A DNA stretch of 64,000 bases from Psychrobacillus lasiicapitis (GTDB lineage Bacteria; Bacillota; Bacilli; Bacillales_A; Planococcaceae). Below, one piece after another: positions 3,243 to 51,257 of this stretch (position 1 is the stretch's first letter; each line of letters starts with the position of its first letter). The stretch lies in contig NZ_VDGH01000005.1 of the NCBI RefSeq assembly GCF_006861795.1, forward strand, positions 186,001-250,000, given 5' to 3'. The position numbers and the translations under genes were made by a program. The notes below the pieces were generated by a model. That model was not told where the DNA came from. It saw nothing but the letters and a program-made list of their open reading frames with translations, and ran no database searches.

Positions 3243-3250
3243 ATTCATAA

Positions 3251-3453
3251 GGTGAAACTCCAATCAGTGGAGGTTTTCAGGTCGTGCAAGTGAGAACGTT
3301 GCGACATGGCCATCGTATTTTTAAGTCTGCGCCATCCATTACTGATTGTTAGTTGAACCAATCGGGCTTTTACGGGCAGTTGATCCTCCACTTATCTTTT
3401 CGCTTCTCTTAAATCTGGAAGTGGTGGTCTTACTGCCCGTTAATGCGGGATAT
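3251..3453 (+). repeat. intergenic repeat family R1, copy 1 (internally shortened)
   Basis: About 200 bp matching the copies at 5901-6209 and 35282-35592. It begins GGTGAAACTCCAATCAGTGG and ends GCCCGTTAATGCGGGATA. It lacks the roughly 105-bp middle module (the perfect TGTGACCCACA hairpin and the GCGACGAGC stretch) of the long copies. Its right end lies within about 2 bp of the hflC stop codon. I see no open frame in it with a ribosome site. Confidence 0.8.
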
Positions 3454-3454
3454 A

Positions 3455-5594: not shown

Positions 5595-5900
5595 ATGAAA
5601 TATTTATTACAAGTAGATTTTATAATGGATGGCCCATTCGGTGAAGAGATGTCAAAGGGGTTCGCTGACTTAGCAAATAGTATTAATGAAGAGCCAGGTG
5701 TGATTTGGAAGATTTGGACAGAGGATGCGGCTGCTAAGGAAGCTGGTGGGATATACTTATTCGAAACGAAAGAAGATGCTGAAAAATATTTAGATATGCA
5801 TTCAGCTCGTTTAACAAGTTTCGGTATCACTAATATTCGAGGTAAAATATTTGAAGTGAACAAAGCTTTGTCACTTATTAATAATGCACCAATTAAATAA
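5595..5900 (+). CDS. YdhR-like putative monooxygenase (dimeric alpha-beta barrel)
   Basis: Small 101-residue protein matching the YdhR family, which has a ferredoxin-like dimeric alpha-beta-barrel fold shared with small heme/quinol monooxygenases; no physiological reaction is established for it. Visible family features are the first strand MKYLLQVDF, the conserved EPGVIWKIWTED block, GGIYLFETKEDAEKYLDMH, and the final strand near NIRGKIFEVN. The ATG is preceded by AAAGGAGAG. The longer frame from 5550 has no ribosome site. The gene is monocistronic, divergent from hflK, and its TAA stop is followed at once by repeat copy 2. Confidence 0.8.
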   Translation: MKYLLQVDFIMDGPFGEEMSKGFADLANSINEEPGVIWKIWTEDAAAKEAGGIYLFETKEDAEKYLDMHSARLTSFGITNIRGKIFEVNKALSLINNAPIK

Positions 5901-6209
5901 AGTGAAACTTCAATCAGTGGGGGTTTTTCGACGCACAGGACGTGCTAGTGGGGACGGTGCGACATGGATGTCGCGCTTTTAGTCCCCGTCATCCCCACTG
6001 ATTGTTAGTTGTGTCCCACAGGATGTGGGTCACACAGACGTTGCAAACGCTCTTTTATTTTGCGACGAGCTTTGCGCAGGAGCAACACGATGTTGCGTAC
6101 TTAGTCTGGGATCATTTCATCGGGCTTTTACGGGCAGTTGATCTCCACTTATCTTTTCGCTTTTCTTCAATCTTGAAGTGGGAGTCTTACTGCCCGTTTA
6201 TGCGGGATA
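5901..6209 (+). repeat. intergenic repeat family R1, copy 2 (full length)
   Basis: A 309-bp element starting flush after the YdhR-like stop codon. Three structured parts are visible: an outer pair CAATCAGTGGGG/CCCCACTGATTG; a TGTGTCCCACA/TGTGGGTCACA hairpin (imperfect here); and a 3' hairpin pairing ACGGGCAGT with ACTGCCCGT around an inner CTCCACTT/AAGTGGGAG pair. It is highly similar to the copy at 35282-35592. Together with the terminator at 6301 it accounts for most of the 511-bp gap; 6210-6300 shows nothing recognisable. Confidence 0.88.
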
Positions 6210-6300
6210 AACAAGTTGATTATAACAGTTGTTTGCAGGAGTTTTTGTATTTGCTTAAATTAAACTTTTGCGTTTGCTATAAAATTATTTTTTAACATTT

Positions 6301-14384: not shown

Positions 14385-15359
14385 ATGAAAATGATTACTC
14401 TACAAATAAATAAGAAAGAATTTATGTCGCTTTGGATACCATTTGGAATTATTATACTAATTTCACTTGTTGCTTACCCTTTATCTTTAGCGATTATATG
14501 TGGTTATTTTTTATATCCTATTACAAATTTCTTTTATAAAAATATGAAACTACCTGTTACTATTAGTGTCCTGTTAACAGAAGCAGTTATTTTGTCTAGT
14601 TTTATATTATTTTTATTTGTAATAGTACAAGCTCTCCTTGATATTCTTCCGCTTATTCATGAGCATATTTTGTTATTACCATTTGTCGAGTTGAAACAGC
14701 ATCCTATTTTCCTATTTTTTGAAGGAAAGTTTCAAAACCTTTTAAACAAACTACTGAATGATTTATTATTAAATTTGACAAATTTACCTTCTTATTTTTT
14801 TGAAGTTTTTTTATTTAGTATTGGCTTATTTTTTTCTTTATACGAATCTACGAAAGATCGTCTTTGGTTTCTCGTTTACTTTCCTAAAAAAGCACGAAAT
14901 TTCTCTCAAAGAGCGCTAAAAAAATCATCTGGCGTCATGAATAAATTTATCTCGGTAGAGTTAAAGCTGTTTTTTTTGACATTTGTTCTTTTAGCAATAG
15001 GATTCAAATTATTAGGTTTCCCTAATCCTATAAAATATGCGTTTCTCGTATCGTTAGTAGATAGCATCCCTTTTTTAGGAACAGGCATACTATTAATACC
15101 GCTTAGTGTTTACTTTTTTTTGATGGAGCAACGAATGGCCGGGATAATCGTTTTACTACTATATATATTTGTTCAGTTAACTAGGCATATTGTAGAAAAT
15201 GTTTTGTGGTCTTCCTCTATGCAAATAAAGGCCGTCCACGTATTCTTTCTAAGCGCGGCAGCCATTTTAATCTTTGGATTTATAGGAATATTATTTAGCC
15301 CATTTATTTACTTGGTCGCAAACAAGTGGGAAAACCTTACGAAGACTTCATCACGATAA
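14385..15359 (+). CDS. ytvI: YtvI-like AI-2E family membrane protein
   Basis: A 324-residue polytopic membrane protein of the AI-2E transporter (UPF0118/PerM) family, counterpart of the B. subtilis gene next to fxsA and citZ. Hydrophobic segments lie near residues 15-38, 60-85, about 140-155, then the C-terminal group typical of the family, with LGFPNPIKYAFLVSLVDSIPFLGTGILLIPL as the conserved core, here seen in pieces such as SIPFLGTGILLIP. Substrate unknown. The ribosome site is weak (AAAGAATGG). Its last 23 bp overlap the end of fxsA on the opposite strand. Orientation is divergent from citZ. Confidence 0.85.
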   Translation: MKMITLQINKKEFMSLWIPFGIIILISLVAYPLSLAIICGYFLYPITNFFYKNMKLPVTISVLLTEAVILSSFILFLFVIVQALLDILPLIHEHILLLPFVELKQHPIFLFFEGKFQNLLNKLLNDLLLNLTNLPSYFFEVFLFSIGLFFSLYESTKDRLWFLVYFPKKARNFSQRALKKSSGVMNKFISVELKLFFLTFVLLAIGFKLLGFPNPIKYAFLVSLVDSIPFLGTGILLIPLSVYFFLMEQRMAGIIVLLLYIFVQLTRHIVENVLWSSSMQIKAVHVFFLSAAAILIFGFIGILFSPFIYLVANKWENLTKTSSR

Positions 15360-15744: not shown

Positions 15745-15962
15745 TGAAAAGCGCAAGCGCCTATGTCTGCCCCGACAGGCAAATGGGGACGTGGTAGGTC
15801 TGCAAAGTATGCCACATCCTGTGGCAAAGCAGACATAACCCGCATCGTGCGGGTCAAGTAGGCAGCTCCTCAGCCACCACAAGCGATTTTGTTTGCGACG
15901 AGCTGTGCGCAGGAGCAGCTTTTTCACATTTGACCCCGAGGGGTAAGGCGCTGGAGCTAGAT
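15745..15962. repeat. intergenic repeat family R2 (GCGCAAGCGCC...GGCGCTGGAGC)
   Basis: A 218-bp block between pyk and fxsA with complementary ends (AGCGCAAGCGCC and GGCGCTGGAGCTAGA). Internal hairpins are TGCCACA/TGTGGCA inside TCTGC/GCAGA, and ACCCGC/GCGGGT. The stretch GCGACGAGCTGTGCGCAGGA is nearly identical to a module inside the R1 copies at 5901 and 35282. Similar elements are familiar between Bacillaceae genes (recollection, not a search). The frame at 15742-15927 inside it is not coding. Confidence 0.75.
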
Positions 15963-25423: not shown

Positions 25424-25528
25424 GTCATTTCTCCTCAGTTAGTCAGGTTTACCATTCGCATTTTTTGAAATTTACTATTACAATAATAGAAGGATATGAT
25501 GGAAGTTTCACTTTATTGGAGGTTCATA

Positions 25529-25837
25529 ATGATTCTTAATGGAATATTGATATGTGCAATAGTTATCTCATTTGTTTGGTATTTCTATTTTAAAACAAAA
25601 CAGTTACGAACAAATTTACCGATTCGAAAAAAATGGTTTGCTGCAAGGGCAGCTGTATGCCTTGGTTCGTTCATGTTTTTCTTCGGTCTTAACTTTTTAG
25701 TAATTTACCAATCCTCTGTTACGTATGCTGTTACTGGTTTGTTTGTTTTACTTGGTGGTTATTTTATGTATCATAATTATAAAGCAAGTAAGCATTACGG
25801 ACAGTTTGTTCAAGAGGAACTCACGTTAAATCAATAA
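25529..25837 (+). CDS. ytpI: YtpI family membrane protein
   Basis: A 102-residue membrane protein of unknown function, counterpart of B. subtilis YtpI by sequence pattern and place between nrnA and ytoI. Three hydrophobic segments are visible (about 3-23, 40-60 and 64-84), with basic residues between the first two (RTNLPIRKKWFAAR). TATTGGAGG lies 6 bases before the ATG, which decides this start over the frame that opens at 25496. Confidence 0.8.
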   Translation: MILNGILICAIVISFVWYFYFKTKQLRTNLPIRKKWFAARAAVCLGSFMFFFGLNFLVIYQSSVTYAVTGLFVLLGGYFMYHNYKASKHYGQFVQEELTLNQ

Positions 25838-25845
25838 GTATTAGA

Positions 25846-25878
25846 ATGATGCAGCTTTAACAGCTGCATCATTTTTTT
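25846..25878. terminator. ytpI terminator
   Basis: Stem ATGATGCAGCT/AGCTGCATCAT, 5-base loop, then seven T on the plus strand, directly followed by the short R1 repeat. Confidence 0.88.
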
Positions 25879-25925
25879 ATCCCGCATTAACGGGCAGTAA
25901 GACCCCCACTGATTGAAGTTTCACT
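25879..25925 (-). repeat. intergenic repeat family R1, minimal copy
   Basis: On the minus strand this 47-bp sequence begins immediately after the ytoI stop. Its first part (AGTGAAACTTCAATCAGTGG) is the 5' end of the long copies and its second part (TCTTACTGCCCGTTAATGCG) is their 3' end, joined directly. The whole interior is missing, as expected for recombination between the GTGGG sequences near both ends of the long form. Confidence 0.8.
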
Positions 25926-27233
25926 TTATCTCTCCAATAACTGATACGTCACCATTGCTTTTCCTACTAATTGTTTTTCGTTGAAAACTTCTAGGTCCAT
26001 TTTTGCCACTTTTCTACTCATTTCTAAAACGCGAGCATGTACTCGAAGTATACTCTCCAACTGGATGGGCTTCGTATAATAAATCGTCATATTCTCGACA
26101 ACACTTTCTCCACGTTTTCTAATTTTCAACGTTTGAGAGCCTGTCTCCGTTACTAGTATTGTAAATGCACCGTAAGACATAGCACCAAAATGATCGGTCA
26201 TTTGAGGGGTTACTTCAAATTCAAAGATAAACTCCTCTGAAGAAATTGCTTTTATTTGCTGTTTCACAATATCATCAATAGTTTCTCCGTTTTGAGGTTG
26301 CCTAGACGCTGCTTGCAAAGCTTTTAATACGTCCTGTCTGCTAATAACCCCTTCTAGATTATTGTTATCTCCTACAACTGGCAACAAATCGATTCCTTCC
26401 CAAATCATCCGGTGGCTTGCCGAAGCTACACTCGTTTTCATCGTAATAGATATGGGTGTTCTCGTCATAACTTTTTCAATAAGTTCATGATTTTCTTTTC
26501 CGATTACATCTCTAGCTGTGACAATTCCTACTAATTTATTGGCTTTATCCACCACTGGAAATCCACCATGGGTTGTTTCATCATTCAATTCGCGGTATTG
26601 CTTTACATGATCGCTTGTACGTAGAAACGATGTTTTTTCTAAAGGAATATAAATATCCTCAATAAGCAGTACATCTTTTTTAATCAATTGGTCGTCAATT
26701 GCACGATTAATCATCGTTGCAACCGTAAATGAGTCATAACTTGTTGAGATAACTGGCAATTCGAATTCATCAGCTAGTTTCTTTGTAGGCTCTGGAACAT
26801 CAAAGCCACCTGTTACAAGTATTGCCGCTCCTGCCTGTAGTGCGGTTTCATGAACTTTTAAGCGATTCCCTACGATGAGTAAATTACCAGGCTCTACATA
26901 TCGCATCATATCTTCTAATTGCATGGCACCTATTACAAATTTGTTCAACGTTTTATAAAGACCCGTTTTACCACCTAAGACTTGTCCATCTACAATATTT
27001 ACAACTTCTGCGAAAGTTAGCCGTTCAAAATGCTCTTTTTTCTTTAACTCTATTCGTATAGTTCCTACTCGTTCAATCGTACTAACTAGCCTTCTAGTTT
27101 CCGCTTCTTTTATGGCACGATAGGCAGTTCCTTCACTAACTACTAAGTCTTTTGCAATTTGCCTAACCGATATTTTATCTCCAACTGGCAGTTTTTCTAT
27201 ATACGCTAATATTTGTTCGTGTTTTGTTGTCAT
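25926..27233 (-). CDS. ytoI: YtoI: HTH, DRTGG, CBS pair and hotdog domains
   Basis: A 435-residue multidomain protein matching B. subtilis YtoI. In order: an N-terminal winged-helix segment (about 1-65, ISVRQIAKDLVVSEGTAYRA), a DRTGG-type domain (about 75-185), two CBS motifs (about 195-310, GGFPVVDKANKLVGIVTARD and ISRQDVLKAL), and a C-terminal hotdog thioesterase-like domain (about 325-435, FEFEVTPQMTDHFGAMSYGA). CBS pairs usually bind adenine nucleotides, so it could be an adenylate-responsive regulator or acyl-CoA sensor; function is unknown. The TAA stop is flush with the minimal repeat. Confidence 0.9.
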   Translation of the reverse strand: MTTKHEQILAYIEKLPVGDKISVRQIAKDLVVSEGTAYRAIKEAETRRLVSTIERVGTIRIELKKKEHFERLTFAEVVNIVDGQVLGGKTGLYKTLNKFVIGAMQLEDMMRYVEPGNLLIVGNRLKVHETALQAGAAILVTGGFDVPEPTKKLADEFELPVISTSYDSFTVATMINRAIDDQLIKKDVLLIEDIYIPLEKTSFLRTSDHVKQYRELNDETTHGGFPVVDKANKLVGIVTARDVIGKENHELIEKVMTRTPISITMKTSVASASHRMIWEGIDLLPVVGDNNNLEGVISRQDVLKALQAASRQPQNGETIDDIVKQQIKAISSEEFIFEFEVTPQMTDHFGAMSYGAFTILVTETGSQTLKIRKRGESVVENMTIYYTKPIQLESILRVHARVLEMSRKVAKMDLEVFNEKQLVGKAMVTYQLLER

Positions 27234-35208: not shown

Positions 35209-35281
35209 TTTATATTCTCCTCCTTTTGTTCTCTCTTTACTTACGTTAAAAAAATTCAAATGTTTCATAAATCGTTAAAAT

Positions 35282-35592
35282 AAATTGAAATTCAATCAGT
35301 GGGGGTTTTCCGACGCACAGGACGTGCTGGTGCGGACGTTGCGACATGGACGTCGCGCTTTTAATCCGCTTTCCCCCACTGATTGTTAGTTGTGACCCAC
35401 ACGATGTGGGTCACACAGACGTTGCAAACGCTCTTTTATTTTGCGACGAGCTTCGCGCAGGAGCAACACGATATTGCGTACTTAGTCTGGGATCATTATA
35501 TCGGGCGCATGCCAGCAGTTGATCTCCCACTTATCTTTTCGCTTTTCTCAAATCTTGAAGTGGGAGTCTTACTGCCAGTTAATGCGGAATAA
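35282..35592 (+). repeat. intergenic repeat family R1, copy 3 (full length)
   Basis: A 311-bp element with near-identity to the copy at 5901-6209. Outer arms TTCAATCAGTGGGGG (35291-35305) and CCCCCACTGATTG (35373-35385); then a perfect 11-bp hairpin TGTGACCCACA with 3-base loop (35391-35415); the shared GCGACGAGC module (about 35441-35465); and a 3' hairpin CTCCCACTT/AAGTGGGAG. It ends within about 3 bp of the rarD stop codon. The 69-codon frame inside is not credible as a gene. Confidence 0.88.
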
Positions 35593-35595
35593 ATA

Positions 35596-49700: not shown

Positions 49701-49705
49701 ATTCT

Positions 49706-49740
49706 ATCCGCATTAACGGGCAATTGGACTCCCACTTACT
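49706..49740 (-). repeat. intergenic repeat family R1, 3'-end fragment
   Basis: On the minus strand AGTAAGTGGGAGTCC then GCCCGTTAATGCGGAT follows directly after the tyrS stop. It matches the 3' end of the R1 copies, with a few bases of the 5' end (AGT) before it. Confidence 0.65.

Positions 49741-51257
<1,517 letters not shown>

Follow-up and report, generated by a model that had tools for sequence, protein, structure and literature searches.

R1, a small mobile repeat of Bacillales that inserts at ATAAA and is biased toward stop codons

A 64,000-nucleotide stretch of the Psychrobacillus lasiicapitis genome, hereafter the window, contains five copies of a repeat family, R1, each within a few bases of a stop codon. 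The pattern raises the question of whether such repeats come to lie at stop codons through the way they insert, or are kept there for a role in transcript 3' ends, the two possibilities named in a preliminary description of the sequence. Our preferred reading, to which we give a probability of about 0.83, describes R1 as a non-autonomous small mobile element of Bacillales whose ATAAA target, combined with the survival of insertions at stop codons, gives the bias.

R1 Copies in the Window

For comparison we used ~1.4 Mb of the genome of a close Psychrobacillus relative (G158), which was 94-95% identical to the pieces of the window that were compared. The five copies match the positions of the preliminary description, apart from the flanking 5-mers:

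35279-35593, + strand: R1 long form, made up of the core and two Bacillaceae-1 modules, between ATAAA-like 5-mers; the site is empty in G158
5897-6211, + strand: R1 long form; its left ATAAA holds the stop codon TAA (5898-5900) of a YdhR-like gene
3247-3454, + strand: R1 copy without the linker module, matching consensus positions 1-117 and 216-315; the site is empty in G158
25876-25929, - strand: R1 remnant with an internal deletion; 54 nt here, 189 nt for its counterpart in G158
49702-49737, - strand: R1 remnant, near-identical in G158, between the tyrS stop codon and a terminator

In all five copies, the stop codon is overlapped by a flanking 5-mer or lies at most 3 bp away, and the end on the stop side is the left one in three copies and the right one in two, as described before. 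The copy at 35279-35593 lies 2 bp from the stop of an EamA/rarD-like gene (ORF end 35596), and the right end of the copy at 3247-3454 is 0 bp from that of an hflC-like gene (ORF end 3455). The TTTAT of the remnant at 25876-25929 (25925-25929) holds the stop of a ytoI-like gene (ORF end 25926), and its opposite end, read by eye, is in a T-tract 3' of a hairpin; 3 bp separate the remnant at 49702-49737 from the stop of tyrS (ORF end 49741). Pfam agreed with all five neighboring genes, giving SPFH/Band_7 (hflC-like), YdhR, DRTGG-CBS-thioesterase (ytoI-like), EamA (rarD-like), and tyrosyl-tRNA synthetase. A T-box leader lies 5' of tyrS (window 51055-51255, - strand), an ordinary feature.

The perfect 11-bp hairpin reported for the long form was located at 35391-35415. 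The window copies contain no transposase frame, as had been noted, and no frame of at least 90 aa is contained in them; a 97-aa frame (6002-6295) begins within a copy and extends beyond it. The two short copies (25876 and 49702) look like remnants of internal deletion, not like separate modules.

The R1 Family Across the Genome

We searched the window's own genome (4.49 Mb in 28 contigs) for further copies. BLAST with the 311-nt R1 copy gave at least 57 matches among the best 40 of 103 candidates scored, and 22-mer patterns of the two ends, with up to three mismatches, matched 77 places for the right end and 78 for the left, the reversed patterns matching none in either case. A profile search of the stretches around the end matches yielded 82 R1 places, including one (C24:294534) that later turned out to be a Bacillaceae-1 module of a different repeat. 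Two of the 82 were in a gene after excision of the element and were omitted, leaving 80 intergenic copies. The consensus is 317 nt with ATAAA at each end, the long form being 307 nt without the flanking 5-mers. Aligned on their ends (80 left, 79 right), the copies have sharp boundaries, with the flanking ATAAA conserved at 90-99% per base and no consensus outside these 5-mers. The longest place (742 nt) is a tandem. Three tandem arrays (C22:292257-292904, C5:135064-135581, and C1:261788-262529) have units with a single ATAAA or ATAAG in common, as would arise if R1 inserted beside an existing copy.

Empty and Filled Sites

Both flanks could be found in G158 for 19 of the 82 places, of which 10 were empty there and 9 were shared insertions; 8 others had one flank only, and 55 had no match in the ~1.4 Mb. 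Among the window copies, those at 3247 and 35279 have empty sites and those at 25876 and 49702 are shared, the copy at 5897 being unbracketed. Each of the ten empty sites has a single 5-mer against two at the filled site: seven have ATAAA, and the other three have ATATT, ATATA, and GTAAA, respectively. At C5:135064, G158 has a single copy, and our genome has a second R1 at the ATAAA of this copy. R1 is a non-autonomous mobile element inserting at the 5-mer ATAAA (TTTAT on the opposite strand). The ten empty orthologous sites bear out the earlier suggestion of insertion, whereas its placing in terminator or 3'-UTR structures holds only in part: the target is the 5-mer ATAAA/TTTAT, whether this falls in a stop codon, in a T-tract, or in neither of them.

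The two 5-mers of a filled site need not be copies of each other. Among 67 R1 end pairs, ATAAA occurs twice in 48 and the two 5-mers differ in 18, some by a register shift; the sole pair with an identical variant belongs to a tandem array. Duplication of the target would lead one to expect equal 5-mers on both sides. At C24:189247, the filled site has ATAAG on the left and ATATA on the right, the latter being also the empty target; at C1:228987, the empty site is ATATT and the filled site has ATAAT on the right and ATAAA on the left. These few cases favor a second 5-mer that is the left ATAAA carried by R1 rather than a copied target. Elsewhere on the contig that contains the window, a further repeat with a Bacillaceae-1 module (C24:294534-294615) occupies an AATAA site in our genome and is absent from G158, and there may be a second repeat family with a similar target.

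Core Structure and Distribution in Bacillales

The R1 core of ~157 nt consists of ATAAA-GTGAAACTT, a hairpin (H1), a conserved linker, a long hairpin (H2), and TTAATGCGGG-ATAAA. The exact 24-nt right end occurs at 82 places in 80 named loci, among at least 113 matching stretches, and the matches listed come from Lysinibacillus, Sporosarcina, Psychrobacillus, Domibacillus, Neobacillus, Cytobacillus, Peribacillus, Priestia, Rummeliibacillus, Terrilactibacillus, and other genera. A left end was found within 300 nt in 66 named matches, of which 30 span 140-165 nt and represent the core. The selection of this core set fixed the right end as exact and admitted left ends with at most two mismatches, whereas it had no part in the conservation of the linker TTAGTTGAACCAATCGGGC. 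One named locus, titled Modestobacter sp. VKM Ac-2985, is a 4.6-kb contig from an actinobacterial assembly; it has an R1 of 54 nt and is possibly a contamination.

RNAalifold predicted 33 base pairs in the core, 10 of them with two-sided changes: 8 in H1, where they affect 8 of 13 stem pairs, and 2 inside H2, the outer stem of which is nearly invariant, partly by construction. Five hundred shuffles gave a mean of 3.6 such pairs, and 7.2 cells in place of the 31 observed, and none reached values as high; slid versions gave at most five pairs. The covariation speaks for a structure that is used as a single strand, be it DNA or RNA.

A plasmid search with the core returned 10 records at E values up to 10. 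The core is present on a Pseudalkalibacillus plasmid (81% over 157 nt) and a Niallia plasmid (69%), and there are partial matches on plasmids of Cytobacillus, Peribacillus, and Klebsiella grimontii. The last of these, outside Bacillales, covers 68 nt at 79% (CP079755.1, 221561-221624; E 2e-6). No cargo link to R1 was seen in two plasmid regions, one of which has no annotation at that place, and the long form had no match on plasmids. The phage search gave four records, the best at E 0.1.

Stop-Codon Bias and Its Controls

Genes were called with a codon-usage caller that was checked on the window, where it missed two plausible genes (14385-15359 and 25496-25837) at the lower threshold as well, and elements were excised before distances to stop codons were measured. 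A neighbor's stop codon lies within 10 bp of 36 of the 80 intergenic R1 copies compared with 89 of 943 intergenic ATAAA control sites; the counts are 31/75 without the window copies and 36/79 without C24:294534. The stop codon TAA is within the flanking ATAAA in 19/80 copies (17/75 without those of the window) and 34/943 controls. Only 2 of the 82 copies, against 1,315 of 2,258 control ATAAA sites, are located in genes. The bias thus extends beyond the window and the copies are not spread evenly over the intergenic regions of the genome, although the claim that every copy is at a stop, true of all five window copies, fails genome-wide, with 44 of the 80 intergenic copies lying elsewhere.

The named genomes, mostly of other genera, showed the bias again: 16/62 copies and 119/1,566 controls had a stop within 10 bp, and the TAA was within the 5-mer in 10/62 and 46/1,566, respectively (19 of the 82 matches, which had no left end in the adjoining 300 nt or were too near a locus end, were skipped and 1 in a gene was omitted). 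In our genome, left ends at same-strand stops account for 28/80 copies against 80/943 controls, and right ends at opposite-strand stops for 8/80 against 11/943. On the start side, R1 right ends lie 5-35 nt 5' of a start codon in 16/80 copies and 65/943 controls of our genome, an excess that was not replicated in the named genomes (6/62 vs. 84/1,566).

As ATAAA contains TAA, many stop codons are themselves R1 targets. When each copy was compared with the ATAAA sites of its own intergenic region, the 79 copies used were expected to include 25.2 at a stop and included 35 (z 3.5); for the 35 informative regions, the figures were 14.2 expected and 24 observed. Most of the stop bias thus comes down to the target sequence and to what kind of intergenic region receives the element, and a 1.4-1.7-fold excess is left over at the 3' boundary.

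Could this remainder reflect active targeting of 3' ends beyond the 5-mer, e.g., via single-stranded DNA or R-loops at termination? We think this unlikely, although stops outside the 5-mer are enriched as well (the right-end class with its 8/80 vs. 11/943) and 7 of the 10 young, G158-empty insertions are at stops (5/8 outside the window). The flanks hold no further sequence motif, the enrichment of the right-end class falls short of significance in the named genomes (2/62 vs. 25/1,566), and an excess of the size left after within-region matching could come from purifying selection.

Transcript 3' Ends and Terminators

The second possibility is that R1 copies at stops are, besides being mobile, retained by selection for a role at the 3' ends of mRNAs, for example as stabilizing hairpins or a processing site. 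Most of the bias can be accounted for without such a role, and we found no positive evidence for it, although the residual excess of 35 copies over 25.2 leaves room for it. The persistence of this excess in the within-region control, the covariation of H1, and the recurrence of the stop bias in other genera would all agree with a function. Covariation, however, is also expected where hairpins are recognized during transposition; both orientations are enriched, and a function would therefore need to work from either strand; more than half of the copies (44/80) are away from stops; and young (7/10) and shared (6/9) insertions are about equally biased. We regard a 3'-end role as distinctly improbable, more so than active targeting.

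We also considered R1 as a terminator and rejected it, as H2 is followed by GGGATAAA with no T-run and only one weak terminator-like site was found, against 0.6 by shuffling. A terminator was intact beyond the element, within ~110 bp, in 15 of 41 stop-adjacent copies, counting as stop-adjacent those with limits reaching 26 bp into the element. Among control stops, terminators were found for 45 of 191 in tandem, 42 of 83 in convergent, and 6 of 6 in unclassified contexts, by a finder that misses some cases, such as the hflC terminator visible in the sequence.

Bacillaceae-1 Modules

The two long window copies give four matches to the Rfam family Bacillaceae-1 (RF01690), all on the minus strand and scoring 40.4-51.8 bits against a gathering score of 35:

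35314-35380, - strand: Bacillaceae-1 module in the apical loop of H1, 47.1 bits
35396-35501, - strand: Bacillaceae-1 module in the H1-H2 linker, 48.4 bits, overlapping the 11-bp hairpin at 35391-35415
5932-5997, - strand: Bacillaceae-1 module in the H1 loop, 40.4 bits
6015-6120, - strand: Bacillaceae-1 module in the linker, 51.8 bits

Genome-wide, 80 of at least 126 RF01690 matches are inside R1 places (best 150 of 479 candidates scored, 14 of the 126 matches being below the gathering score). Of the 46 outside R1, we examined 23, and 22 of these have flanks that are repeated at another module, forming about three groups. One such module, in a different interspersed repeat of the gaaaagcgcaagcgcc... 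type, lies in the window at 15787-15853 (+ strand); this repeat is unbroken in G158 and thus predates the split of the two genomes. In the 36 of 80 named loci scanned, modules placed by hand were antisense to R1 in the H1 loop in 7 of 7 cases and in the linker antisense in 4 and sense in 7, five of the seven in both larger groups coming from one Domibacillus genome and hence not being independent. At C1:20205, the R1 insertion is the same in both genomes, and its linker, bare in G158, contains the module in our genome. Two other repeats (L121 and L138) differ similarly by presence or absence of the module, and four more (L120, L140, L146, and L148) are unbroken across both genomes.

The occurrence in R1 and about three other repeat groups, the two orientations in the linker, and the presence/absence differences at C1:20205, L121, and L138 suggest a tentative and rather doubtful reading in which the ~70-nt twin hairpin of Bacillaceae-1 is a transferable unit parasitizing other mobile repeats; gene conversion between copies could produce the presence/absence differences as well as transposition. 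If true, a listed small-RNA family would be a mobile DNA module seeding protein-binding hairpins beside stop codons. RF01690 is catalogued as an sRNA gene, whereas here it is a module of mobile and other repeats. Excerpts of PMC9029176 treat it among the "most abundant small RNAs"; in our genome it is largely a module of interspersed repeats, and its counts should therefore not be taken for numbers of sRNA genes. The excerpted texts of PMC2864571, PMC4333381, PMC9029176, and PMC8208703 do not treat Bacillaceae-1 as part of mobile repeats. A table in the excerpt of PMC9029176 prints Bacteroidetes for Bacillaceae-1, which misfits its original listing under Bacillaceae.

The reverse complement of Bacillaceae-1 is proposed as a CsrA-binding RNA in an excerpt of PMC4333381, and by analogy R1, with this strand and GGA loops resembling CsrA sites on its plus strand, might form a dispersed CsrA sponge. 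Our genome has csrA, there are AGGA loops such as CACAGGATGTG on the R1 plus strand, and RF01690 occurs in 143/180 csrA-positive but 8/20 csrA-negative genomes, a figure that becomes 7/12 (P = 0.14) without a genus in which csrA is absent throughout (g4). We nevertheless consider a sponge highly improbable: many copies occur in genomes without a csrA match (19 in G082 and 24 in G091), GGA is in both loops of 2, one loop of 16, and neither loop of 5 of the 23 non-R1 modules, two of five loop-like places of R1 are ACGA (in 20/24 and 18/24 copies), the GGA positions are conserved about like the rest of the module, the linker module has either orientation in other genomes (the 4 antisense and 7 sense cases), and R1 lies either way round between codirectional genes (++ 31, -- 21). 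By these loop counts, R1 and the non-R1 modules do not match CsrB/RsmZ-type RNAs, which have several GGA-loop hairpins on the transcribed strand, and the tests at the sequence level speak against R1 as a general CsrA sponge.

The Search for a Mobilizing Enzyme

No R1 copy that we saw has room for a transposase gene. In the named genomes, we looked for an autonomous partner as a left end within 3 kb of the right end; it was present for 68 of the 82 matches, the longest spanning 388 nt besides a doubtful one of 485 nt, and there was none for the other 14. Our genome has three Y1 transposase matches, one a 41-aa fragment; none has RF01690 at gathering score nearby and none is linked to R1, and these searches gave no candidate for the mobilizing enzyme or another partner. 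Two are genes (L304 1285-1866 and L305 1435-2058) that we take to be RAYT-like. Beside L304 are palindromes containing TCCCTGTGTAAG that differ from R1, perhaps a separate REP system.

Discussion

We propose that R1, a mobile repeat of Bacillales, inserts at ATAAA, so that a stop codon in the context A-TAA-A would itself be the target. Such an insertion would leave the protein unchanged and the terminator downstream. Insertions at stops would therefore survive and those in coding sequence or promoters would be lost, giving the stop-codon bias. R1 would be mobilized in trans by an enzyme encoded elsewhere. Its long form bears two Bacillaceae-1 twin hairpins, a module in common with other interspersed repeats. 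The proposal builds on direct observations: the sharp ends, the empty sites, the target 5-mer, the replicated bias, the hairpin covariation, and the sharing of modules. Selection as the cause of the residual stop bias is something we infer by assumption, and the similar stop bias of young and shared insertions would also fit a targeting preference.

The striking stop-codon pattern comes mainly from the target sequence. Where repeats in other genomes show a similar pattern, a target that includes TAA should therefore be looked for before any function at 3' ends is claimed. The findings also extend TTTAT-flanked repeats to many genera outside the Bacillus cereus group, and the pairs of empty and filled R1 sites can be used for testing how such repeats move.

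REP/REPIN and IS200/IS605-type small elements are moved by Y1 transposases. R1 resembles them in having hairpins near both ends and insertion beside a fixed 5-mer, and likewise in lacking obvious terminal inverted repeats. It differs in that the three Y1 matches of its genome have no RF01690 at gathering score nearby and one of them is beside a different palindrome. As for the features of DDE-type MITEs, the R1 ends GTGAAACTT and AATGCGGG have no inverted repeat by eye, and there is a 5-mer on each side that differs within 18 of 67 pairs.

The closest known kind appears to be the bcr1 or group A BCR repeats of the B. cereus group, a likeness drawn from descriptions and not from sequence; five R1 strings had no occurrence in the open-licence PMC papers covered by the search. 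In excerpts of the respective papers, these repeats are tabulated at 147 and 167 nt with no coding role given (PMC2267715), the mobility of bcr1 is tied to the 5-mer TTTAT (PMC6542083), and bcr repeats are described as MITE-like and often part of UTRs (PMC3446304). R1 is similar in having TTTAT at its ends (80 left and 79 right, and the empty sites), in its size of ~150 nt (core 157 nt) with hairpins and no coding frame, and in positions that differ between close relatives (10 empty and 9 shared of 19 bracketed sites). The two differ in that bcr1 is described in such excerpts as restricted to the B. cereus group, whereas the R1 matches listed come from many other genera, and in the nested Bacillaceae-1 modules of R1, which the excerpted texts of PMC2267715, PMC6542083, and PMC3446304 do not mention for bcr1. 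TTTAT-associated, MITE-like UTR repeats are, by these excerpts, known in the B. cereus group, and R1 would, judged by description, be a further element of this kind.
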